Part shown: positions 8,791-52,292 of the stretch, piece after piece
Layout: every line of letters begins with the position of its first letter
How positions within the stretch are numbered: the first letter of the stretch is position 1
Source of the DNA: Gammaproteobacteria bacterium
Lineage (GTDB): Bacteria > Pseudomonadota > Gammaproteobacteria > Steroidobacterales > XN24
Reading direction: 5' to 3'
DNA: 64,000 bases
Assembly: GCA_029287575.1 (NCBI GenBank)
Contig: JARFQW010000032.1
Coordinates: 1 to 64,000, forward strand
Notes under the pieces: generated by a model
The model's input: the letters and a program-made list of their open reading frames with translations, nothing else
What the model was told of the DNA's origin: nothing
Database searches by the model: none
Program-made: the position numbers and the translations under genes

Positions 8791-10740
8791 TCAGCCTGTG
8801 TTGCGCCGGTTCTGAATGATCTCGTCCACAACGCCCGGGTCCGCAAGCGTCGAAGTGTCGCCAAGGGAGCCGTAGTCATTGGCCGCCACCTTGCGGAGGA
8901 TGCGGCGCATGATCTTGCCCGAGCGAGTCTTTGGCAAGGACGGAGTGAACTGAATCAAATCGGGTGATGCGATCGGGCCGATTTCCTTGCGTACCCATTG
9001 CCGAAGCTCCTTCTCAAGCTCATCGCCGGGTTCCTCACCCTGCTTTAGCGTCACGTAGACATAGACACCCTGGCCCTTGATGTCGTGGGGATATCCCACG
9101 ACCGCGGCCTCGGCGACCTTGTCGTGGGCCACCAGGGCGCTTTCGATTTCGGCGGTGCCCATGCGATGGCCGGACACGTTCAGCACATCGTCCACCCGGC
9201 CGGTGATCCAGTAGTAGCCGTCTTCGTCCCGGCGGGCGCCGTCGCCGGTGAAATAGGTCCCTTCGAAGGTGCTGAAATAGGTCTGCACAAAGCGATCATG
9301 GTCGCCGTAGACCGTCCGCATCTGCCCCGGCCAGCTGTCCAGCAGCACGAGATTCCCCTCGACCGCCCCATCGAGTTCCTGACCCTCGTTGTCCACCAGC
9401 GCCGGGCGTACACCAAAGAACGGCCGCGTGGCGGAGCCAGGTTTCAGGGCGGTGGCGCCGGGCAGCGGCGTAATGAGGATGCCGCCGGTTTCGGTCTGCC
9501 ACCAGGTGTCCACGATCGGGCAGCGCTCATCCCCGACTATGTGGTAGTACCACTCCCAGGCCTCCGGGTTGATGGGCTCGCCCACCGTCCCCAGCAGCCG
9601 GAGACTCTTGCGGCTGGTTCCCTTGACCGGTTCCTCGCCTTCGCGCATCAGCGCGCGAATAGCGGTCGGCGCAGTATAGAAGATCGAGACCTCGTGCTTG
9701 TCCACGACCTGCCAGAAGCGTGAGCTGTCCGGATAGTTCGGCACGCCTTCGAACATCAGGCTGGTCGCGCCGTTCGCCAGGGGGCCGTAAACGATGTAGC
9801 TGTGGCCGGTGATCCAGCCCACATCGGCGGTGCACCAGTAGACCTCGCCGTCCCGGTAGTCGAACACGTACTCGTGAGTCATGGAGGCGTACACCATGTA
9901 CCCCCCGGTCGTGTGCAGCACGCCCTTGGGCTGACCGGTGGATCCGGACGTGTAGAGGATGAAGAGGGGATCCTCCGCACTCATCTCCTCGGCCGGGCAC
10001 TCCGGCTCCTGCGAGGCCACCGCCTCCTCGTACCAGACGTCCCGGCTGTCATCCCAGGCAATGTCGGCGCCGGTGCGCTTGACCACGAAAACCTTCTCCA
10101 TGGTGGGCAGGGCGCGATCCGCCATCGCCCGATCCACGTTGGCCTTCAATGGAACCTTGCGGCCTCCCCGCAGGCCCTCGTCTGCGGTGATGACCGCCTT
10201 GGCTCCACAGCCCTCGATGCGGCCCGCCAGCGCTTCCGGCGAAAATCCGCCGAAGACGACGGAGTGGGGCGCGCCGATCCGGGCGCAGGCCAGCATGGCG
10301 ACCGCCGCTTCCGGGATCATGGGCATATAGATGGTGACCATGTCGCCGCGGCCGATACCGTGGGCCTTGAAGGCATTGGCCAGCCGGCAGACGTCCTCGT
10401 ACAGCTCCCGATAGGTGATCTTCTTGGAATCCGCCGGATCGTCTCCCTCCCAGATGATCGCGACCTGGTCGCCGCGGGTTTCCAGGTGCCGGTCCAGGCA
10501 GTTGGCGGACGCATTCAGCGTGCCGTCCTCGAACCATTTGATATGGACGTCATCCCGGGCGAAGGAGACGTCCTTGACCGTCGAATAAGGCTTGATCCAG
10601 TCGATCCGCTGGCCGTGTTCGGCCCAGAAGCCCTCGGGGTCCTCCACGGACCGGGCATACATGGCCAGATATGTCTCATTATCGCAACGCGCGGTGCGCA
10701 CGACTTCCGATGGCACTGGATAAACCTTTGTCTCGGTCAT
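8791..10740 (-). CDS. acs: Acetyl-CoA synthetase (AMP-forming)
   Basis: The 649-residue protein is a full-length acetate--CoA ligase: it activates acetate with ATP through acetyl-AMP and transfers it to CoA in the cytoplasm. The adenylate-forming signature [15 protein letters not shown], the acetate-pocket region around [11 protein letters not shown], the A8 hinge [15 protein letters not shown] and the regulatory/catalytic lysine in [12 protein letters not shown] are all present. The lysine is the residue acetylated in Acs of other bacteria. The start at 10740 follows GGAGGGA by eight bases. It heads an operon with crbR; the upstream region holds repeated TTAGACC words that could be regulator sites. 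Confidence 0.97.
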
Positions 10741-10827
10741 GGCCGAGTCCCTCCAAATCGTGGGTTGAGTTGACGGGGTGTTGACGCTTACCCGGAAGAG
10801 TCTTGCGCCAGCGCCCCGGTACGGCCA

Positions 10828-10865
10828 TTAGACCTTCGGAGGACCGAAGGATTCCGCCTTAGACC
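10828..10865. promoter_or_regulatory. Candidate regulator sites between acs and the porin gene
   Basis: TTAGACC occurs twice in direct orientation (10828-10834 and 10859-10865), with starts 31 bp apart, or three helical turns. Between them is a perfect 7-bp inverted repeat, CCTTCGG / CCGAAGG (10833-10839 and 10844-10850). The region lies between divergent acs and porin genes. Binding by CrbR is a guess. Confidence 0.35.
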
Positions 10866-10940
10866 ATTGACTAATACCAAGGCGCTACAAGGGGGTTCAT
10901 AGTCCGGGCCAGTGGCTTCCAAACACAGGGAGACATAGCC

Positions 10941-12122
10941 ATGTTGACAAGAAAAGCCATCCGTTTTGCGCTCCTCCCCGTCGCGGCGGGCGCCCTCCTG
11001 GGCACCTCCAGCGGCGCCCTCGCGGCCGGGTCCTGGGATGCCGGCAGCTTCAAGCTGAGCTACGGCGGATACATCAAGCTCGATGTGTTGTATTCAGACT
11101 ACAGTGACGGCAATCCCGCCAGTAACAGCATCGGCCGTGACTGGTATGTGGCGTCTACCACGCCGGTCGGCGGCGATGACGACGATGCCGTACTCGACGC
11201 CCACGCCCAGCAGTCACGCTTCTTCTTCGCGACGGAAGCCGATGTGGGCGGCAAGAAGGTCACCTCCCGCTTCGAGTTCGACTTCATGGTCAGCCCGGGG
11301 GGTAACGAGCGGGTATCCAACTCCTATAACCCGCGCATGCGCCATGCGTTCTTCACGTATGACAAGTTCCTGTTCGGCCAGACCTGGTCCACGTTTCAGA
11401 ACGTGAGCGCCCTGCCGGACACAGTGGATTTCGTCGGTGCATCGGATTCCACGATCTTCGTTCGCCAGGCGCAGGTTCGTTACACGACCGGTAACTTCGC
11501 CATCGCGCTGGAGAATCCCGAGACCACGGTGTCCAACTTCGCGACCAGCGGCCGGATCGACGCGGACGACAACAACGTTCCCGACCTGGCGGCCCGGTAC
11601 ATCCTGAAGACCGGTTTCGGCGATTTCTGGGCGGCCGGCCTCGTGCGCCAGCTCAAGATCCAGGACGATGCCGCGTCCGGAATCGATGACGACGACGTTG
11701 GCTATGGCATCAGCCTCTCCGGCAAAATTCCCTTTGGTGACAAGGGCAGCGATTTCCGCTTCATGGGCAGCTTCGGCGAGGGCATGGGCCGCTACATGGG
11801 CCTGAACCTCTTCAACGGTGCGGAATCTGATGCCAGCGGCAACATCGACGCGCTGGAAAGCTACGGTGCCTTTGGTGCGCTGCGTCTGGTATGGAACTCC
11901 AGCTGGCGTTCGAGCTTCGTGGGCAGCATCGCCGAAGCGGATAACAGCGGTGACATCGGCGGGGCCACCAAGAAGGCCTGGAGCATCAGCGGCAACGTCA
12001 TTTACTCGCCGGTTCCGGGTATCGACCTGGGTCTCGAGCTTCGCTACGCCGAGCGTGAAGTCGAGAACGGCGACGACGGCGACCTGACCCGCGTGCAGTT
12101 CGGCGCCCGCTACAACCTCTGA
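10941..12122 (+). CDS. DcaP-like outer-membrane porin
   Basis: The 393-residue protein starts with a clear signal peptide (residues 1-29, cleavage after SSGALA). The mature part opens with SFKLSYGGYIKLDVLYSDYS, typical of DcaP-family trimeric porins, and continues with alternating beta strands and acidic loops. It ends in VQFGARYNL, whose terminal hydrophobic residue fits an outer-membrane barrel. The family takes up dicarboxylates or other small anions; acetate uptake is suggested only by position between acs and the rest of the locus. GGGAGA precedes the start. It is followed by a strong terminator. Confidence 0.82.
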   Translation: MLTRKAIRFALLPVAAGALLGTSSGALAAGSWDAGSFKLSYGGYIKLDVLYSDYSDGNPASNSIGRDWYVASTTPVGGDDDDAVLDAHAQQSRFFFATEADVGGKKVTSRFEFDFMVSPGGNERVSNSYNPRMRHAFFTYDKFLFGQTWSTFQNVSALPDTVDFVGASDSTIFVRQAQVRYTTGNFAIALENPETTVSNFATSGRIDADDNNVPDLAARYILKTGFGDFWAAGLVRQLKIQDDAASGIDDDDVGYGISLSGKIPFGDKGSDFRFMGSFGEGMGRYMGLNLFNGAESDASGNIDALESYGAFGALRLVWNSSWRSSFVGSIAEADNSGDIGGATKKAWSISGNVIYSPVPGIDLGLELRYAEREVENGDDGDLTRVQFGARYNL

Positions 12123-12169
12123 TCGAAAGCATCGGTTCCGGTCTTCGGATCGGAGCTGAATCCGTCCGC

Positions 12170-12202
12170 GGGGCCGGCTCGTTGCCGGCCCCGCTCTTTT
12201 TT
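12170..12202 (+). terminator. Rho-independent terminator after the porin gene
   Basis: A 9-bp GC stem (GGGGCCGGC / GCCGGCCCC) with a 5-base loop is followed by GCTCTTTTTT. It lies 47 bases after the porin stop and 30 bases before the next start codon. Confidence 0.92.
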
Positions 12203-12231
12203 CCCTCCCGTTCCCACGCTATCGTGCGGTC

Positions 12232-14016
12232 ATGACCGGACTCCTGGATTTTTCCGATACACCGTTCGCCGCTCTGACCGAGAAGGAGCTGGGAATTGTG
12301 CGGGGCCGTCTGGGCGTGGCCAGTTTTGCCCAAGGCGAGGTGCTCAAGGCCGCCGGCGACCGCTGGAGCGAGCTGTTCCTTGTTCTGAGGGGCACGGTCC
12401 AGGCCGAAGCGCCGGATGGCACCCAGCGCCACTTCGGCCCCGACGACCTGGTAGAGGGCCGGGACCTGGTGCGGGGCGATCGGGACCGCGTCTTTACAGC
12501 GGCCAGGGAAACGGTCTGCCTGGTCCTCGGCCGCGAGACCGTTGACTGGCTGCTGCACCGGAACACGAAGTTCCGCCATGCCCTGGCAGAGAAACGGCCA
12601 CCCCTGTCCCGCATGCGTGCCGGCATGCCGGCCGGCGACGCGTTCACGATGGCCCGCGTCCGGGATGCCCTGGTCCGCAAACCCCTGGTGCTGGCCGCCG
12701 AAACGCCGGCAACCGAAGGCGTGACGACCCTGCAGGAGCGCAGCGGAGACTGTCTGCTGGTCAGCGACGACGGCCGCTACGGCATGGTGACCGGTACGGA
12801 TTTGCTCGAGGCCGTCACCAGCCCGGCGGGCCTCTCCCAGCCGCTGAAAAACGTCGCCACCTGGGACCTGGTCAGCGCCTCCCCGGACGATTTTCTGTTC
12901 GACGTGCTGGTCCGCCTCACCCGCCACCACATCGAGCGGGTCCCCGTGTTCGAGGAGGGGGAGCTGATCGGCCTGCTGGAGCAGACCGATATCCTGAGCC
13001 TGTTCTCTACACAGTCAGCGTCGCTGGGCATCCGCATCGAACGGGCGGAGAGCGTGGCCGAACTCGAGACCGCCGCCGCCGGCATGGTGGACCTCACCCG
13101 CATGCTCGTGGACCGCGGCGTGGACATCACCCTGGTCCTCGACCTGTTGTCGGCCCTCAACGAGCGGATCATGGCCCGGCTGTTCGGGCTGGTCGTTCCG
13201 AAGCAATTCCATGCCCGGACCTGTCTCATCGTGATGGGAAGCGAAGGTCGCGGGGAGCAGATCCTGAAAACCGACCAGGACAATGCGCTGATCGTCGCAG
13301 ACGATCTGGACTGGCCGCAATGCCAGGAGGCGATGAACCGGTTTTCCCACGAGCTCGGCCGGCTGGGCTATCCGCCGTGCCCTGGCAACTACATGGTCAG
13401 CAATCCCAAGTGGGTCGTTTCCGTTTCGGACTGGGAGACGCGGATCGACCACTGGCTGCGTCACCGGGACGGCGACGCCATGCTGGACCTCACGGTGTTC
13501 TCGGACTCCCATCCGGTGGCCGGAAACCGTCAGCTGTTCGAAACTCTCGAGGACTGGTTTCTGGAACGCCTCACAAAGAGCATCGGCTTCATCCCGTCCT
13601 TTGCCCATCCAGTCCTGCGCTTCCAGGTCCCGCTGGGATTCTTTGGCGGCATCCGCAAGGCCGACGAGGGTGTCGACATCAAGAAAGGCGGTATCTTCCC
13701 GTTGGTGCACGGGGTCCGCAGTATGGCGCTGGATGCGGCGATCCACGAGACCAATACGTTCCGGCGCGTCGATGCCCTGGTGGCCCGGGGGGATATGGAT
13801 GCGCCGGGGGGCGAGGACCTGAAGGCGGCGCTCGAGATTTTCATGCTTTACCGGCTGCGTCAGCAGATGGAGGCCATCGCCGCCGGGGAGAAGCCCACCA
13901 ACATCATCCGGCCGGCTGCGCTGCGGCGCATGGAGCGGGAGCAGCTGCGCCGGGCCCTGCGCACGGTCAAGGCCTTTCAGGCCCGGCTGGCGAGGAAGTA
14001 CCACCTGGAGATCTAG
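12232..14016 (+). CDS. DUF294 / CBS / cNMP-binding-like nucleotidyltransferase protein (copy 1)
   Basis: The 594-residue protein has a cyclic-nucleotide-binding-like N-terminus (about 1-115) that lacks the usual phosphate cassette, two CBS motifs (about 135-265), a DUF294 nucleotidyltransferase-like domain (about 290-430) and a DUF294 C-terminal helical domain. The nucleotidyltransferase motif is complete: MGSEGRGEQ followed by TDQDNALIV near residues 333-355, with both aspartates of the DxD pair. The family resembles the GlnD uridylyltransferase core, but no substrate is established. It begins a run with the exonuclease and deaminase genes (9-base gap, then a 4-base overlap). Such proteins often neighbour acetate-switch genes, suggesting a regulatory role. 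Confidence 0.85.
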   Translation: MTGLLDFSDTPFAALTEKELGIVRGRLGVASFAQGEVLKAAGDRWSELFLVLRGTVQAEAPDGTQRHFGPDDLVEGRDLVRGDRDRVFTAARETVCLVLGRETVDWLLHRNTKFRHALAEKRPPLSRMRAGMPAGDAFTMARVRDALVRKPLVLAAETPATEGVTTLQERSGDCLLVSDDGRYGMVTGTDLLEAVTSPAGLSQPLKNVATWDLVSASPDDFLFDVLVRLTRHHIERVPVFEEGELIGLLEQTDILSLFSTQSASLGIRIERAESVAELETAAAGMVDLTRMLVDRGVDITLVLDLLSALNERIMARLFGLVVPKQFHARTCLIVMGSEGRGEQILKTDQDNALIVADDLDWPQCQEAMNRFSHELGRLGYPPCPGNYMVSNPKWVVSVSDWETRIDHWLRHRDGDAMLDLTVFSDSHPVAGNRQLFETLEDWFLERLTKSIGFIPSFAHPVLRFQVPLGFFGGIRKADEGVDIKKGGIFPLVHGVRSMALDAAIHETNTFRRVDALVARGDMDAPGGEDLKAALEIFMLYRLRQQMEAIAAGEKPTNIIRPAALRRMEREQLRRALRTVKAFQARLARKYHLEI

Positions 14017-45930: not shown

Positions 45931-46797
45931 TCAATCCGCTGGCGGCGCATGGCCGAGCACCCGGGCCCGGGACTGTTCCCGGGGGCGGCGGACATCGTTC
46001 CCTGCCAGGGCCTCGTAGGCCGCGCGCACCGTGTCCGCGTCATAGGCCCGTTCCAGGCGGCGCACGGTGAAATGTCCACGGGCCATGTCCTGGAAATGCT
46101 GCATGAAGATGGCGTTCAGCGTGGCCCCGGAAATGGCGCCGGCCACCGGCACCATCTGAAAGGCCAGCTTGTCGCCGACCGCAACCCCGAAGCGAGCCGC
46201 GACGGCTCGGGCCAGCTGCACGGTGGCCGGCAGGCTGGCATGGGCCAGGCCTTTTTCGACCAGGGTGCGACTGACGGTGGAGAGATGGAAGGCGAGGGCC
46301 ATCCTCAACCCGTAGTATCCGGTTTCCGCGGCATCGTCGTCGGCCCGCCGGCCGCCGTATGCAAACACTTCCACGCAGGCCAGTCTCGCGGTGGCATCGT
46401 CGAGGTCCTCGCCGTGGCTGCGGGCGATGTCGGCAATCGAGCGCAGCATGAGGGTGGTGGACACCGGCAGCTCGGCGAGGGTGCCCGGCAGGCCGAAGAA
46501 GCCGCCGGCGGCACCGGTGGCCATGCCGAGGACCCGGTGCAGATCCGAGCGGTCGGCGGTGGGATGCCGGCCCGGCATGGACAGCATGGCGGTTCCCAGA
46601 GCCCGGAGAATCGCGGCCTCGGCGATCCGGTGGACCCGCCGGGACAATCCTGACGGCAGCAGCCGCACGGCTTCCTCCAGCGGCAGTCCCACCAGGGCGG
46701 TGAGCCGCGCGGCAAGGCTCGGATACTCCAGCAGGCCACGCGCTGCGACCAGGGCGTCCTGGTCGGCAGGCTCGAGGCGGGCGATGTCGGAATTCAT
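45931..46797 (-). CDS. EcsC-family protein
   Basis: The 288-residue protein has the EcsC order: an N-terminal helical region, the glycine-rich MATGAAGGFFGLPGTLAELP, TTLMLRSIADIARSHGEDLD and the later VPVAGAISGATLNAIFMQHF. EcsC proteins take part in ABC-transporter function or membrane stress in other bacteria, but the mechanism is unsettled. It starts nine bases after the stop of the MetK-like gene, making it the fifth gene of the ATPase operon, and converges on the PA2778 gene with 15 bases between stops. No good ribosome site is seen, which fits translational coupling. Confidence 0.86.
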   Translation of the reverse strand: MNSDIARLEPADQDALVAARGLLEYPSLAARLTALVGLPLEEAVRLLPSGLSRRVHRIAEAAILRALGTAMLSMPGRHPTADRSDLHRVLGMATGAAGGFFGLPGTLAELPVSTTLMLRSIADIARSHGEDLDDATARLACVEVFAYGGRRADDDAAETGYYGLRMALAFHLSTVSRTLVEKGLAHASLPATVQLARAVAARFGVAVGDKLAFQMVPVAGAISGATLNAIFMQHFQDMARGHFTVRRLERAYDADTVRAAYEALAGNDVRRPREQSRARVLGHAPPAD

Positions 46798-46806
46798 GGT
46801 CAGATG

Positions 46807-47964
46807 CTAACCGAGTTGGGCAGCCAGATCCCGCCGCTCCCAGGGCAGATCCAGGTCTTCCCGGCCCATGTGGCCGTAGACCGCTAGACGGCGGAAAAAG
46901 GCCTGGGCCGCGGGCTGGGGTTCGCCGAGGCCGAAATGTTTCAGCAGGCCGGCCGGCCGCAGATCGATGGCCTTTTCCAGCCGCGCGATCAACTCGTCAT
47001 CCGGCAGCGCGCCGGTGCCGAAGGTGTCGACCCAGAGGCTGACGGGCTCGGCACGGCCGCTGGTCCACGAGATCTGGATTTCGCAGGACTCGGCAAGCCC
47101 GGCCGCGACCGCGTTCTTGGCCAGATAGCGGGCGGCATAGGCGCCCAGCCGATCAATCCGCGACGGATCCTTGCCCGACAGCGCCGCGCCGCCGTGGCGC
47201 GCGTACTCTCCATAGGTGTCCATCCCCGTCTTGCGGCCGGTCAGGCCGGCATGCAGCGTCGGCCCGCCGGTGGCCAGCGCTCCGTCGGGCTGGATGAACA
47301 GATCGCTGCGGCGGTCCATTTCCAGTTCCCTTGCCGCCAGGACCGGGTCCACGACCTCCTTCTTCAACAGCCGCCGGAGTGTCCGTGAGTCGGGTGCCCG
47401 CCCGGCGTCTCCTGTCAGCACCAGCGCCAGGGCATGAATACGCCCGGGCCGGCCGTTGTGGATTTCCACCGCCGCCTGGGTCTTGCAGTCGGGGGAAAGG
47501 AAGTCCAGCGTGCCGGCCATGCGCACCTCGTCGAGCTGCCGGGCCAGCCCGTGGGCCAGATCCAGCGGCAACGGCATCAGCGATTCGGTCTGGCTGCAGG
47601 CAAAGCCCAGCACGGTAACCGGGGCGTCGGCTGGCGTGCCCGGCCCCGCCGCGTCCCGGCGAGGCGCGTCGGACCGGGTCAGCGTGCTCAGAACGGTGCA
47701 ACGGTCCGGGTCGAACTCGCGGCGGTCATAGCCGATGTCCTCGATGACATCGCGCGCGGCCCGGGTAATGTCCACCTCCTCGTCGGCATGGTAGCGGGCC
47801 GCAAGAAATACAATGCCCGTGGCGACAGCGCACTCGGCGTCCACGCGGGCAAAGCCATCCTGTGCCAGGAAACGATCCACGATGGCGTCGCTGATCTGGT
47901 CACACAGTTTGTCGGGATGGCCGCGAGTGACGGATTCCGAAACAAAAACCGACGCTTTGCTCAT
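46807..47964 (-). CDS. metK: Divergent methionine adenosyltransferase-like protein
   Basis: The 385-residue protein follows MetK from end to end: [20 protein letters not shown] at the start, GLTGRK and [12 protein letters not shown] in the middle, [20 protein letters not shown] and [11 protein letters not shown] later. MetK makes SAM from methionine and ATP. However the GAGDQG signature is replaced by PADAPV (111-116), the second signature GGGAFSxKDP reads [10 protein letters not shown], and the GDCG loop before GLTGRK reads LHAG, so an active-site Asp is lost. It is therefore an unusual paralogue with uncertain activity. Its ATG overlaps the ATPase stop (ATGA) and GAGGAG precedes it. Confidence 0.8.
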
Positions 47965-50900
47965 GACGACTTCTCCTCGACGGGCGGGCCGCCCGCTGCG
48001 GCCGCCCGCCGCTCTTTCAGAGCCCGGTTGATCATGGCCGGGGCGATGGCGCCGGCGGCGGTGACCGCCAGGTCCACGATGCCCGGCCGGGCGGCTCCCA
48101 GGAGCCGGCGGGTTGGCGGAAACAACAGCGCGAGACCCTGCAGGGCGAGGCTGCCGCCGACGGCCAGGTCCAGGCGCCAGTTGCCGGAGGACGACGCCGA
48201 CGGGCGCGCCCTGCGGCACACGTAGGCGTGGATCAGCTGGGCCGCGGTCAGGGTGGAAAAGGCCAGCGTTCCGGCCCGGGGCCCGGGACCGTAGCGGGCG
48301 AGCCCGAAGCGGTAGGCGGCCAGGGCCGAAACCGAAATCACCGCCGATTCCCCGAGCATCCGGCGCAGATCGTCCCCGGTCACCACCGGCTCGTCCGGGT
48401 CTCGGGGCGGCTGGGCCAGCACGTCCTCCTCGGGCCGTTCCAACGCCAGGGCGAGGGCGGGGAACACGTCGGTCACCAGGTTGATCCATAGCAGCTGCAG
48501 CGGATTGAGGGGCTGGGGCATCCCGAGTGCCAGGCCGGCGAGCATGACTTCGATCTCGCTGAAGTTCGTTGAGAGGAGGTAATGGATGGACTTGCGGATG
48601 TTGGCGTAAATGCCCCGGCCCTGGGCAATGGCATCGATGAGTGTTGCGAGCTTGTCGTCGTCGGCCACCACGTCGGCGATCGCGCCGGCGATCTCGGAAT
48701 GGCCTCCGCCCATTGCCACCCCCACGTCCGCGGCCTTCAGGGCCGGGCCGTCGTTGATGCCGTCGCCGGTCATCCCGACGACGAGCCCGTCGTCCTGCAG
48801 CGCCCGGACGATCTCGAGCTTGTCGGCCGGGCTGACCCGGGCGAACACGTCCGTGGAATGGGCCAGGCCGGCGAGCACGGCCGGTTCCAGGTTGCTGAGC
48901 TGGCCGGCCTCCAGTACCCGGAGTTCCGGTTTGCCGCTGAGACCGAGTTCGCGGCCAACCGCCGCAGCCGTGGCGCCCTGGTCGCCGGTAATCATGACGG
49001 TGCGCAAGCCGGCGCCGTGCATTTCCGCCACGAGTGCCTGCATGCCCGGCCGGAGCGGGTCGGCGAGGCCGACGAGTCCCTGCCAGACCGCCTGGCCAGC
49101 AACCGGTTCCGGGCCATCGACACCGGTGGCGCGGGCAACCGCGATGACGCGCAGGCCTCTGGCTGCCCACCGTCCGTTGAGTCGTGTCAGCGTGGCGCGC
49201 CGCGCCGCGGTCAGCTTGCGTCGCCGGCCGCCGCGAACTTCGTGGCCGCAAAGTTCCAGCACCTGGGCGGGGCTGCCCTTGATGGCCAGCATGGCGCCGC
49301 CACGGTCGCCCTCGTGCAGGGTGGCCATGTAGTGCCGCTCGGCGGAGCGATAAACGGTTTCCAGGCGGGGATGTTTTGCGGCCACGCGGGCCCCGCTTAC
49401 GCCGCCGGCATCCGCCAGTTCCAACAGCGCGCGTTCCGTGGGTGAAGCCTCCTCTCTGCGCTGTGTTTCCCGGCACAGGGCGAGGGTTTCCAGCATGCGT
49501 CGCAGGGCCCGGTCCCCGGCTGCGTCCAGGTCGCCGCCCTCGGCGTCCCTGACCCGCAGGTCGCTCATCACGGTCAGCTCCTCGGCTCCCAGCGCGACGG
49601 CTACCGCGGCCATCCGGTTGCGGGTCAGGGTCCCGGTCTTGTCCAGGCAGACCACCTGCAGACTGCCGAGAGTTTCGACGGCGTCCAGGCGGCGCACGGA
49701 AACGCCGCGGCGGCGCATTTCCCGAATACCCAGTGCCAGGGTCGTCGTGGCGACCGCCGGCAGTCCTTCCGGTACGGCGGCGACTCCCAGCGAGAGGGCG
49801 GTGCGCAGCACCTGCATGACCGGCAGCCCCCGGGCCAGGCCTATGGCCCCCACCGCGGCGCAGGCGGCGATACTGGCCACGGCCAGCTGGGTACCCAGGC
49901 CGTCGAGCTGGCGCTGCATGGGCGTGGTCGGGGCGCTGACGCTGCCCAGCGCGGCATGTAGGCGGCCCATCTCGGTCTGCAGACCGGTCTGCACGACCAG
50001 GGCGAGCCCGCTGCCCCCCGTGACCGTCGTGCCGCGCCACACCATGTTGGTCCGTTCCGCGAGCACGGTCTCTTTGGGGTGCACGTTGCCGGCCTGTTTC
50101 TGCACCGGGAGGCTCTCCCCGGTCAGCACGGACTCGTCCGTAAACAGGCCCCGGCTCTGGACCAGGCGCGCATCCGCTGCGATCACCACGCCGGGGGTGA
50201 GCATCAGCAGGTCGCCGGGGACCACATCGGTGACACTGATCGTAGTTTCCACGCCGTCCCGGAGAACGTTCACGAGCTTCCCCGCCGGCGTCGCCATGGC
50301 GCGAATGACCCGCTCGGCCTGTCGCTCGGTCGCGAACCCCACCGCAGTATTGGTGGCCACGACCGACCCGATCGCGAGCGCATCCAGAATCGCCCCGGTC
50401 AACACCGAAAGGCCGGCGGACCCCGCGAGAAGCCCCACGGGTGCGGTCACGACCTGGCGCCGCAACAACTCCGCGGCGCCCGGGGGCTGGCTCTCCGGAA
50501 GCGCATTCGGTCCGTGGCGCTGCCGTCGCAGGAGCGCCTCGTCCGCGGTCAGGCCGGTCAGGACGTCAATGCCGATCTGTTGACCGCAGGCCTCCGCCGT
50601 CAGGGTGTGCCAGGCCGGTCCGGAAGGCACGTCATCAAGACCCTCGACCGGCGGTGTCGGACCCGGCCGGCGGGCTTTCCGGGCGGACGTGTTGCCGGCG
50701 CGCCCGGCTTTTTGCTTGTTCGTGGCTGCTTGGCCGTCACGGCTGGACGATGGCGCCGCCGGCTGACCGGACAGTCCGGCAACGGCGTCCTCGAGATGCC
50801 GGAGGATCTGGTCCCGGTTCAGCTGGTGGTGGACGAGCACGGTGCCGGTGGCCGGGCTGGCCCGGACCTCGTCGACTCCCTTGTGCGTCATGAGCGCATC

Positions 50901-51017
50901 TTCGATGGCCCGGGCATGGTCGGAACGCCGCCGTAACGCGTCGAGCGCGACGCGGGTACGGCCCGGCACGACCCCGTGAACCGGGCGGATCAGCCAGCGG
51001 GAGGAACCCTTGGTCAC
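47961..51017 (-). CDS. P2-type cation-transporting ATPase with N-terminal HMA-like region
   Basis: The 1018-residue pump has an HMA-like N-terminus (about 10-75) without CxxC, a basic linker, and the full P-type ATPase core. TGES is near residue 297, the phosphorylated Asp in CLDKTGTLT near 457, and [10 protein letters not shown] near 750. Membrane helix 4 has VPEGLPA and a later one [19 protein letters not shown], as in P2-type Ca2+/Mn2+-like pumps rather than heavy-metal P1B pumps (no CPC). The start is GTG 51017 overlapping the HMA2 gene stop (GTGA); its stop overlaps the MetK-like start (ATGA). The cation is unknown. CtpI-like mycobacterial pumps have a similar N-terminus. Confidence 0.87.
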
Positions 51018-51424
51018 TGGTCCGCGCGTAGCTCTTCCCAGCGGACGATTTCCAGGGCATACCAGGCCAGCGAAATCGCCGGGACCATGATCTGTCCCCG
51101 GACCGCCTGGATTACGGCCAGCCCGAGAAATACGGGTGCGAGGCTGGCCAGGGCATCCGCCGCCGCGCCGCCGGAGCGCGCCGGGTCGCGGACCGCGAAC
51201 CAGCCCCGTTCTTCGCCCACCTCGGGAATCTGCCGCACGGCGAGATCCTTGCCGCGGATCAGGAAGCTCCCGGTGGCGGAGTTGCCGATGACCCGGACGA
51301 TGCCGGGGAACTGGTTGATGGCGCGGCGAGTGTCGGCAAACCAATCGTCATCGCCCTTGCGTTCCGGGATCCGCAGGCGGATTCTCCCAGGCGCCGCATG
51401 CACCAGCTCCGCGGCCGGGATCAT
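51014..51424 (-). CDS. HMA2-domain protein with C-terminal membrane helices
   Basis: The 136-residue protein has an HMA2-like ferredoxin fold: [20 protein letters not shown] then [20 protein letters not shown], lacking the metal-binding CxxC. Two short hydrophobic stretches follow ([20 protein letters not shown] and [16 protein letters not shown]). Its ATG at 51424 overlaps the DUF5132 stop (ATGA), and its stop overlaps the ATPase GTG (GTGA), so the three genes are translated together. It probably docks on or regulates the ATPase; without cysteines it is unlikely to carry metal. Confidence 0.82.
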
Positions 51425-51690
51425 GCCGTTCGCCTCGATGCCTCCCCGGGCGCGTCGGTGGCTTCCGGGCACCGGGTCTCGACAGCCTGCAGTTCGGCAA
51501 TCGTATCTTCGGCAACTTCCAGCAGCTCCGCGGCGGTCTCCCGGGCTTTTTCCTGAAGGATGCGGCCGCTGCGTCCTAGGGCCCGCGCCAGGGGCCTCCC
51601 TGAGGCGCCCATGGCGGCTATCACCAGCGGCGTTGCCGCCGCCACCGTTACCCCCAGCACCATGCCCTTGATCAGATCTCCACGCGCCAT
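51421..51690 (-). CDS. DUF5132 small membrane protein
   Basis: The 89-residue protein begins MARGDLIKGMVLGVTVAAAT, with a membrane segment at residues 9-28, followed by an amphipathic helix (LQEKARETAAELLEVAEDTI). It matches DUF5132, small proteins found upstream of HMA2 and P-type ATPase genes. AGAGG precedes the start. It is the first gene of the five-gene operon that ends with EcsC; the upstream gap to the divergent CBS gene (51691-51854) holds the promoter. Confidence 0.82.
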   Translation of the reverse strand: MARGDLIKGMVLGVTVAAATPLVIAAMGASGRPLARALGRSGRILQEKARETAAELLEVAEDTIAELQAVETRCPEATDAPGEASRRTA

Positions 51691-51854: not shown

Positions 51855-52292
51855 ATGTTCAGTATTCGCACGGTGTTGAGCCACAAGAAGAATCAGGCCA
51901 TCGAATCGATTGGTCCGGACGATACGGTGCTCGAAGCGATCAAGCACATGGCCGAGAAGCGCATCGGCGCCCTGCTGGTCATGGAGGGCGAGGCGGTCGT
52001 CGGCATCGTCTCGGAGCGCGACTATGCCCGCAAGGTCATTCTGCAGGGCCGCCGGTCGGCGGACACCCGGGTCCGGGACATCATGAGCAGCGATGTCGTG
52101 ACCGCCACCGCGAGCATGACGGCCCGCGAGGGCCTGGAGATCATGACCGAAAAGCTGATACGGCATCTGCCGATCTACGACGACAGCGCTCTCGTCGGCG
52201 TCGTCTCCATCGGCGACCTGGTCAAGACGGTGATCGCCGAACAGGATGCGCTGATCAACCAGCTGGAGGCTTACGTCAGCGGGTCGGCCTGA
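51855..52292 (+). CDS. Two-CBS-domain protein
   Basis: The 145-residue protein is a CBS pair: DTVLEAIKHMAEKRIGALLV and EAVVGIVSERDYARKVI in the first, SMTAREGLEIMTEKLIRHLP and ALVGVVSIGDLVKTVI in the second. The VGIVSERDYARKV motif fits adenosyl-ligand binding of CBS modules (AMP, ATP or SAM). It is a soluble stand-alone sensor of unknown partner. AAGGG precedes the start. It is divergent from the ATPase operon, so a shared control region is possible. Confidence 0.88.
   Translation: MFSIRTVLSHKKNQAIESIGPDDTVLEAIKHMAEKRIGALLVMEGEAVVGIVSERDYARKVILQGRRSADTRVRDIMSSDVVTATASMTAREGLEIMTEKLIRHLPIYDDSALVGVVSIGDLVKTVIAEQDALINQLEAYVSGSA

Follow-up and report, generated by a model that had tools for sequence, protein, structure and literature searches.

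A P2A-type ATPase gene and a MetK-like paralogue as the core of a conserved gene set, and possibly of an ion-pump system, in Pseudomonadota and several other phyla

The closest described systems to the genes reported here are the P2A-type Ca2+-ATPases, represented by LMCA1 (lmo0841), SPCA/PMR1 and SERCA; the S-adenosylmethionine (SAM) synthetase MetK (EC 2.5.1.6); and the heavy-metal-associated (HMA) metal-binding domains, among them HMA_2 (PF19991). P-type pumps in which the catalytic subunit is accompanied by small membrane partners, as here, are represented by KdpFABC and by the Na,K-ATPase with its beta and gamma subunits. We know of no P-type pump with an accessory subunit derived from a SAM synthetase. 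The window analyzed here is a stretch of 64,000 nucleotides (positions 1 to 64,000 of contig JARFQW010000032.1, assembly GCA_029287575.1) from a gammaproteobacterium of the lineage Steroidobacterales, XN24. It contains a five-gene operon coding, in this order, for a DUF5132 protein, an HMA2 protein, a P2A-type (Ca2+-ATPase-like) P-type ATPase, a MetK-like paralogue with the SAM-synthetase fold, and an EcsC-family protein. No description of this set was found in the open-access literature, in agreement with a first-pass annotation of the same DNA, which knew of no function for it.

With LMCA1, SPCA/PMR1 and SERCA the window pump (47961..51017, minus strand; PF00690, PF00122, PF00702 and PF00689) shares the domain order of P-type ATPases, the catalytic motifs DKTGT and TGES, the PEGLP motif and SERCA-like ligands in the membrane segments M4, M5 and M6. 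It differs from the P2A Ca2+-ATPases in forming a clade of its own, in carrying an N-terminal HMA2 domain, absent from the best-scoring matches outside the clade, and in its DUF5132, HMA2 and MetK-like companions. The MetK-like protein (46807..47964, minus strand; identified by Pfam and NCBIfam matches, alignment, tree and model) has the fold, the length, the triphosphate- and metal-binding residues and the catalytic His of MetK, but it belongs to a separate clade, its methionine and ribose residues are replaced, it occurs in addition to a normal MetK, and its gene lies beside a pump gene and not in a methionine operon. The HMA2 protein (51014..51424, minus strand) has the ferredoxin-like fold common to HMA metal-binding domains but lacks CxxC or any cysteine, and it adds two helices that are read as a membrane anchor.

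All five reading frames are open at the coordinates named in the first-pass annotation, all on the minus strand, and the junctions are as described there. Stop and start codons overlap by four bases between the DUF5132 and HMA2 genes (ATGA, 51424-51421), the HMA2 and ATPase genes (GTGA, 51017-51014) and the ATPase and MetK-like genes (ATGA, 47964-47961), and a gap of nine bases (46798-46806) separates the MetK-like gene from the EcsC gene. The same annotation had read the overlaps as a sign of fixed stoichiometry and a single machine, which goes too far, as stop/start overlaps alone show neither stoichiometry nor a complex. Scans for sigma-70 promoters and terminators were uninformative.

Relatives were collected with the MetK-like protein as sole query against a set in which each species is represented by a single genome; the resulting distribution across phyla is a lower bound. 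Among the matches listed, the relatives are about 44-53% identical to the query, are followed by ordinary MetKs of Clostridia, and are hosted by Cyanobacteriota, Nitrospirota, Thermodesulfobacteriota, a metagenome-assembled genome (MAG) of the Myxococcota, and alpha-, beta- and gammaproteobacteria. The query carried no pump information, yet the pump gene immediately precedes the MetK-like gene in nearly all of these relatives; over all 44 loci it does so, in the same orientation, in 42. Both outcomes that the first-pass annotation had named as refuting its reading are thus contradicted: the order recurs in several phyla and is not confined to the window genome, and a MetK-like gene apart from the ATPase is a rarity, seen in just two Calothrix genomes, where the distance to a pump of the clade is 42 kb in one and 192 kb in the other. 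The four-base overlap of ATPase stop and MetK-like start recurs in roughly half of the loci in which it could be measured. No pump was found near three ordinary metK loci examined as controls. The full order with EcsC last is seen in the window genome only; a near relative (G004) has ATPase, MetK-like and EcsC genes before the contig end cuts the locus. Fischerella thermalis carries two MetK-like genes and two pumps of the clade, and an alphaproteobacterium found through the pump profile alone has a MetK-like gene 36 bases downstream of the pump. Among the 25 best matches on plasmids no MetK-like paralogue was present, the top match being at most 46% identical.

Co-occurrence of the two genes was measured with profiles of the MetK-like clade and of the pump in 274 genomes sampled evenly across the Gammaproteobacteria, and is near perfect. 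The MetK-like profile matched 10/274 genomes at 548-675 bits, the rest scoring 434 or less; the pump profile matched the identical ten genomes at 1303-1516 bits, the rest scoring 951 or less. If the two were independent, such an overlap would arise by chance with p 2e-18, a figure that is only a guide, as the genomes are not independent. The top matches of the pump profile outside the clade start no earlier than about position 100 of the profile and so lack the N-terminal HMA2 domain, though a few weaker ones start slightly earlier. The set is patchy, with 10/274 genomes in Gammaproteobacteria and 2/398 in a phylum-wide draw. Divergence of the two proteins is congruent: their pairwise distances are correlated with r 0.89 over 25 loci (0/2000 permutations), to which shared ancestry contributes.

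The MetK-like proteins are set apart from ordinary MetKs by tree and by active-site residues. In a tree of 85 sequences, 43 MetK-like proteins and 42 ordinary MetKs are split by one branch with a support of 100 in the Shimodaira-Hasegawa-like approximate likelihood ratio test (SH-aLRT). Residues were counted in the same two groups in E. coli numbering, leaving out the paralogue of genome G173. H14, D16, K17, E42, R244, K245 and K265 are kept in all 43 MetK-like proteins, and D271 in 41, with Glu in the other two. D238 is replaced by His in 43/43; E55 is kept in none (Arg in 36, His in five, Met and Gln in one each), nor is K269 (Arg in 42, His in one). Q98 is kept in two, S99 in one and D118 in ten of the 43, whereas H14, D16, K17, E42, E55, Q98, S99, D118, D238, R244, K245, K265 and K269 are invariant in 42/42 ordinary MetKs. 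Changes of I247 to A/G and of I246 to N/T open the side-chain pocket. A diagnostic stretch of the window protein (47158..47268, minus strand) contains SGKDPSR, with His at the position of E. coli D238 and Arg at K269, and keeps R244, K245 and K265.

The replaced residues have published roles. In human methionine adenosyltransferase (MAT) MAT2A, Asp258 (= D238) binds the amino group and the ribose O3 of SAM, while Glu70 (= E55) binds the amino group and Gln113 (= Q98) the carboxyl group (PMC6850014). The MAT2A variant S114A (= E. coli S99) retains 2.5% of SAM synthesis and hydrolyzes tripolyphosphate (PPPi) as the wild type does (PMC6850014), and in E. coli MetK the carboxyl group is bound by K269 and Q98 (PMC3853416). 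Judged by these contacts, the methionine-reading half of the site has changed and the triphosphate-reading half has not.

The fold is that of the family. The MetK-like protein has the Pfam MetK N, M and C domains, and its predicted model superposes on the MAT of C. glutamicum with Z 45.4 and 2.1 A over 373 residues, solved MATs in general giving Z 43-45. The protein reaches 335.9 bits against the NCBIfam metK equivalog TIGR01034 (cut-off 309.4). Automatic annotation would name it a methionine adenosyltransferase because this cut-off is passed, and would so hide the system. Of the earlier description as a SAM-synthetase-like protein, membership of the MetK family and the fold hold, while a function as SAM synthetase is very unlikely given that the methionine and ribose residues are replaced throughout the family.

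Ordinary MetK is present alongside. In the window genome (3.75 Mb in 208 contigs) an ordinary metK is found as well, divided between the ends of two contigs; its longer piece shows E55, Q98, D118, D238 and K269. Further MetK matches were found in 10/10 of the gammaproteobacteria that carry the pump/MetK-like pair and in 15/16 other genomes, the exception being an incomplete MAG. Substitution of the MetK-like protein for a missing metK was rejected, as ordinary MetK is present in the window genome and further MetK matches occur in nearly all of the genomes checked.

Pumps linked to a MetK-like gene group in a single clade (SH-aLRT 100), with a cysteine-free N-terminal HMA2 domain and SERCA-like Ca2+ ligands; the unlinked Calothrix pumps and one pump on a Microvirga plasmid belong to it as well. 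The solved structures nearest to the window pump are Listeria LMCA1 and human SPCA1. Its ligand positions are E417 in the M4 motif PEGLP, N818 and E821 in M5, and N846, T849 and D850 in M6, which we take to correspond to SERCA E309, N768, E771, N796, T799 and D800; E908 of M8 is outside this mapping. LMCA1 has Ala and Asn at the positions of window E821 and T849. The pump stays below the NCBIfam equivalog cut-offs for the PMR1 type (TIGR01522, 533.8 against 798.3 bits) and the SERCA type (TIGR01116, 447.4 against 703.4 bits). Features of P1B heavy-metal pumps are absent from the window pump, in which M4 carries PEGLP and not CPx and the N-terminal HMA2 domain (residues 13-65, 50823..50981, minus strand; Pfam) is cysteine-free. 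Transport of heavy metals by way of the HMA domains was rejected because they have no cysteines. The membrane ligands, read from sequence, suggest Ca2+ or Mn2+ as the transported ion.

The window HMA2 protein scores 29.5 bits against PF19991 (gathering score 30). It contains no cysteine, and no CxxC occurs in an alignment of 20 HMA2 members; protein and pump domain alike being cysteine-free, they are not classical metal sites. The AlphaFold model of the protein (predicted local distance difference test score, pLDDT, 90) shows a ferredoxin-like domain followed by C-terminal helices at residues 86-108 and 112-135, read as a membrane hairpin. A Foldseek search with this fold gave no match at E < 0.001; MerP, CopZ and PacS domains were weak matches. 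HMA_2 matches occur in 10/10 genomes with the pair, partly as the N-terminal domain of the pump itself. The DUF5132 protein (51421..51690, minus strand), a small membrane protein with one hydrophobic stretch and an amphipathic helix by inspection, scores 24.8 bits against PF17195 (gathering score 25), and 25 with flanks in a whole-genome search. Both it and the HMA2 protein align with clear family members at the equivalent place in other genomes, and DUF5132 homologues stand at this operon position in loci of Nitrospirota, Thermodesulfobacteriota and Myxococcota. DUF5132 was found in 9/10 genomes with the pair and in 1/264 others (p 5e-15); the lone other genome (G200) has DUF5132, HMA2 and EcsC genes at a contig end.

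The EcsC-family protein (45931..46797, minus strand) scores 92.1 bits against PF12787 (gathering score 30.4). Its earlier designation as a partner stands in part: the subfamily is enriched in gammaproteobacteria with the pair (7/10 against 7/264 other genomes, p 2e-8), but it is optional and not part of the core. In genome G173 EcsC occurs with DUF5132 and HMA2 apart from the pump. Elsewhere (L247 in genome G250, 8995-13055) the EcsC subfamily adjoins another P2-ATPase together with a fragment of HMA2, with no MetK-like gene present; the association of EcsC with P2 pumps may extend beyond this system. Nothing was found on EcsC function in open-access papers. In Nitrospirota, Thermodesulfobacteriota, the Myxococcota MAG and Nitrosospira, an amphipathic repeat protein of 210-320 residues accompanies the set instead of EcsC. 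It lies between HMA2 and pump genes, or with HMA2/DUF5132, in 11 loci (examples: L006 5168-5860, L007 5136-5840, L029 5320-5952 and L010 11884-12807), and no Pfam family above cut-off was found for the members scanned. The near-obligate core thus consists of ATPase and MetK-like protein, with DUF5132 and HMA2 close behind and EcsC as an optional gammaproteobacterial partner.

Beside the set in other genomes stand genes for CorA, MgtE, Na/Ca exchangers and TerC, divalent-cation transporters by family, none of them constant. Divergently transcribed from the window operon is a gene for a protein with two CBS domains (51855-52292). CBS domains often bind adenosyl nucleotides. This gene was rejected as a partner, tblastn having found no homologue in other loci. 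In Calothrix sp. PCC 7103 (L018, 10695-12668) a 657-residue P2-ATPase-like protein is encoded downstream of the orphan MetK-like gene; it has SGKTGM in place of the phosphorylation motif DKTGT and lacks most of the nucleotide-binding domain, and is described here as a pump-like pseudoenzyme.

The genes may constitute one conserved ion-pump system, in which a divalent-cation pump of the P2A type, membrane accessories and a dedicated, ATP-binding, non-SAM-forming MetK paralogue that tunes the pump work together; we give this reading a probability of about 0.45. The ATPase, with its Ca2+-pump membrane ligands, would move Ca2+ (or Mn2+) across the membrane. The small membrane proteins HMA2 and DUF5132 would probably assemble with it, HMA2 perhaps docking through the matching HMA2 domain at the pump N-terminus. 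The MetK-like protein would be a cytosolic partner that arose by duplication of SAM synthetase, lost the known methionine binding and makes no SAM, and may still bind Mg-ATP and/or tripolyphosphate in the old site. Its most likely role would be to gate or tune the pump in response to the state of nucleotides or phosphate, and slow hydrolysis might act as a timer. EcsC would be a membrane-associated extra, as would the amphipathic repeat protein in other phyla.

Several observations weigh against this reading. K165 varies, being kept in 34/43 MetK-like proteins, and the MetK-like protein of G173 (L120, 1501-2673) has GHPDC for GHPDK and Thr at K165; it is perhaps a non-catalytic member. The catalytic His and Lys are strictly retained in 43 sequences, which speaks for active chemistry no less than for sensing. 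Alphaproteobacterial pumps vary at the Ca2+-ligand positions, for instance in Methylosinus (L032). Plasmid NZ_CP069355.1 of Microvirga sp. VF16 (L250, 5071-11742) carries two DUF5132 genes upstream of a clade pump and two HMA2 genes downstream, and no MetK-like gene was found on this 1.4 Mb record; the pump may therefore be functional without the MetK-like protein, and the plasmid set is a possible MetK-less form of the system.

The main rival to pump tuning is a new 5'-adenosyl transferase, and the data do not favour either decisively. On this view the MetK-like protein would still support nucleophilic attack on C5' of ATP, but by an acceptor other than methionine, anionic or larger, and the small adenosyl product would be exported by the pump, serve as its ligand or protect against ion stress. 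H14, K17, R244, K245, K265 and both metal ligands persist in members from several phyla, basic residues have for the most part taken the place of those that bind the zwitterion (E55 to R/H, D238 to H, K269 to R), so that the acceptor would probably be anionic, and the side-chain pocket widens (I247 to A/G, I246 to N/T). The pump, however, keeps Ca2+ ligands and not a site for an organic substrate, no enzyme that would consume the product recurs beside the genes, and K165 varies here too; we consider such an enzyme unlikely, though less so than the explanations that follow. Enzymatic modification of the pump by the MetK-like protein, for example by placing an ATP-derived group on a pump or HMA2 residue, would suit a near-obligate partnership with catalytic residues kept. 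It is improbable, in that neither a residue that could be the target nor a comparable precedent was found and the pocket lies at the dimer interface under the gating loop, an awkward place for a protein substrate.

Continued SAM synthesis through a rearranged methionine pocket, to serve local needs near the membrane or to supplement the dose of MetK, is argued against by the residue pattern, which makes it unlikely without disproving it. The MAT fold, the passed NCBIfam equivalog cut-off, the different methionine-binding residues of archaeal MATs, and the retention of about 76% activity by human MAT2A Q113A (PMC6850014) speak in its favour. Four direct methionine/ribose contacts and Ser99, kept in 42/42 normal MetKs, are nevertheless replaced family-wide, a normal MetK is also present, and SAM synthesis gives no reason for a near-obligate linkage to a cation pump; its chances seem as slight as those of pump modification. 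Least probable is an association that is merely genomic, a mobile cassette in which a pump and a metK copy happen to travel together with no functional tie. The patchy distribution in gammaproteobacteria (10/274) suggests horizontal transfer and the Microvirga plasmid has the pump without the MetK-like gene, but both genes persist unlinked in Calothrix and doubled in Fischerella, and the linkage extends across deeply diverged lineages, with an active site that is conserved and specific to the family.

The boldest reading is that a family of enzymes derived from SAM synthetase, catalysing a reaction that does not yield SAM (turnover of ATP or tripolyphosphate, or transfer of a 5'-adenosyl group to an acceptor other than methionine), exerts direct control over a P-type cation pump or supplies it. 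We regard this as tentative, at slightly less than even odds. To our knowledge such a link of nucleotide chemistry to ion transport is known in no organism. SAM synthetase is among the most conserved of enzymes, yet a whole clade related to it, present in several phyla, seems to have lost the methionine site and to have become bound up with a single ion pump. Should the partnership prove functional, the recruitment of a metabolic enzyme as a pump partner would be open to clear tests, and bacteria would have a new route for handling Ca2+, Mn2+ or Mg2+.

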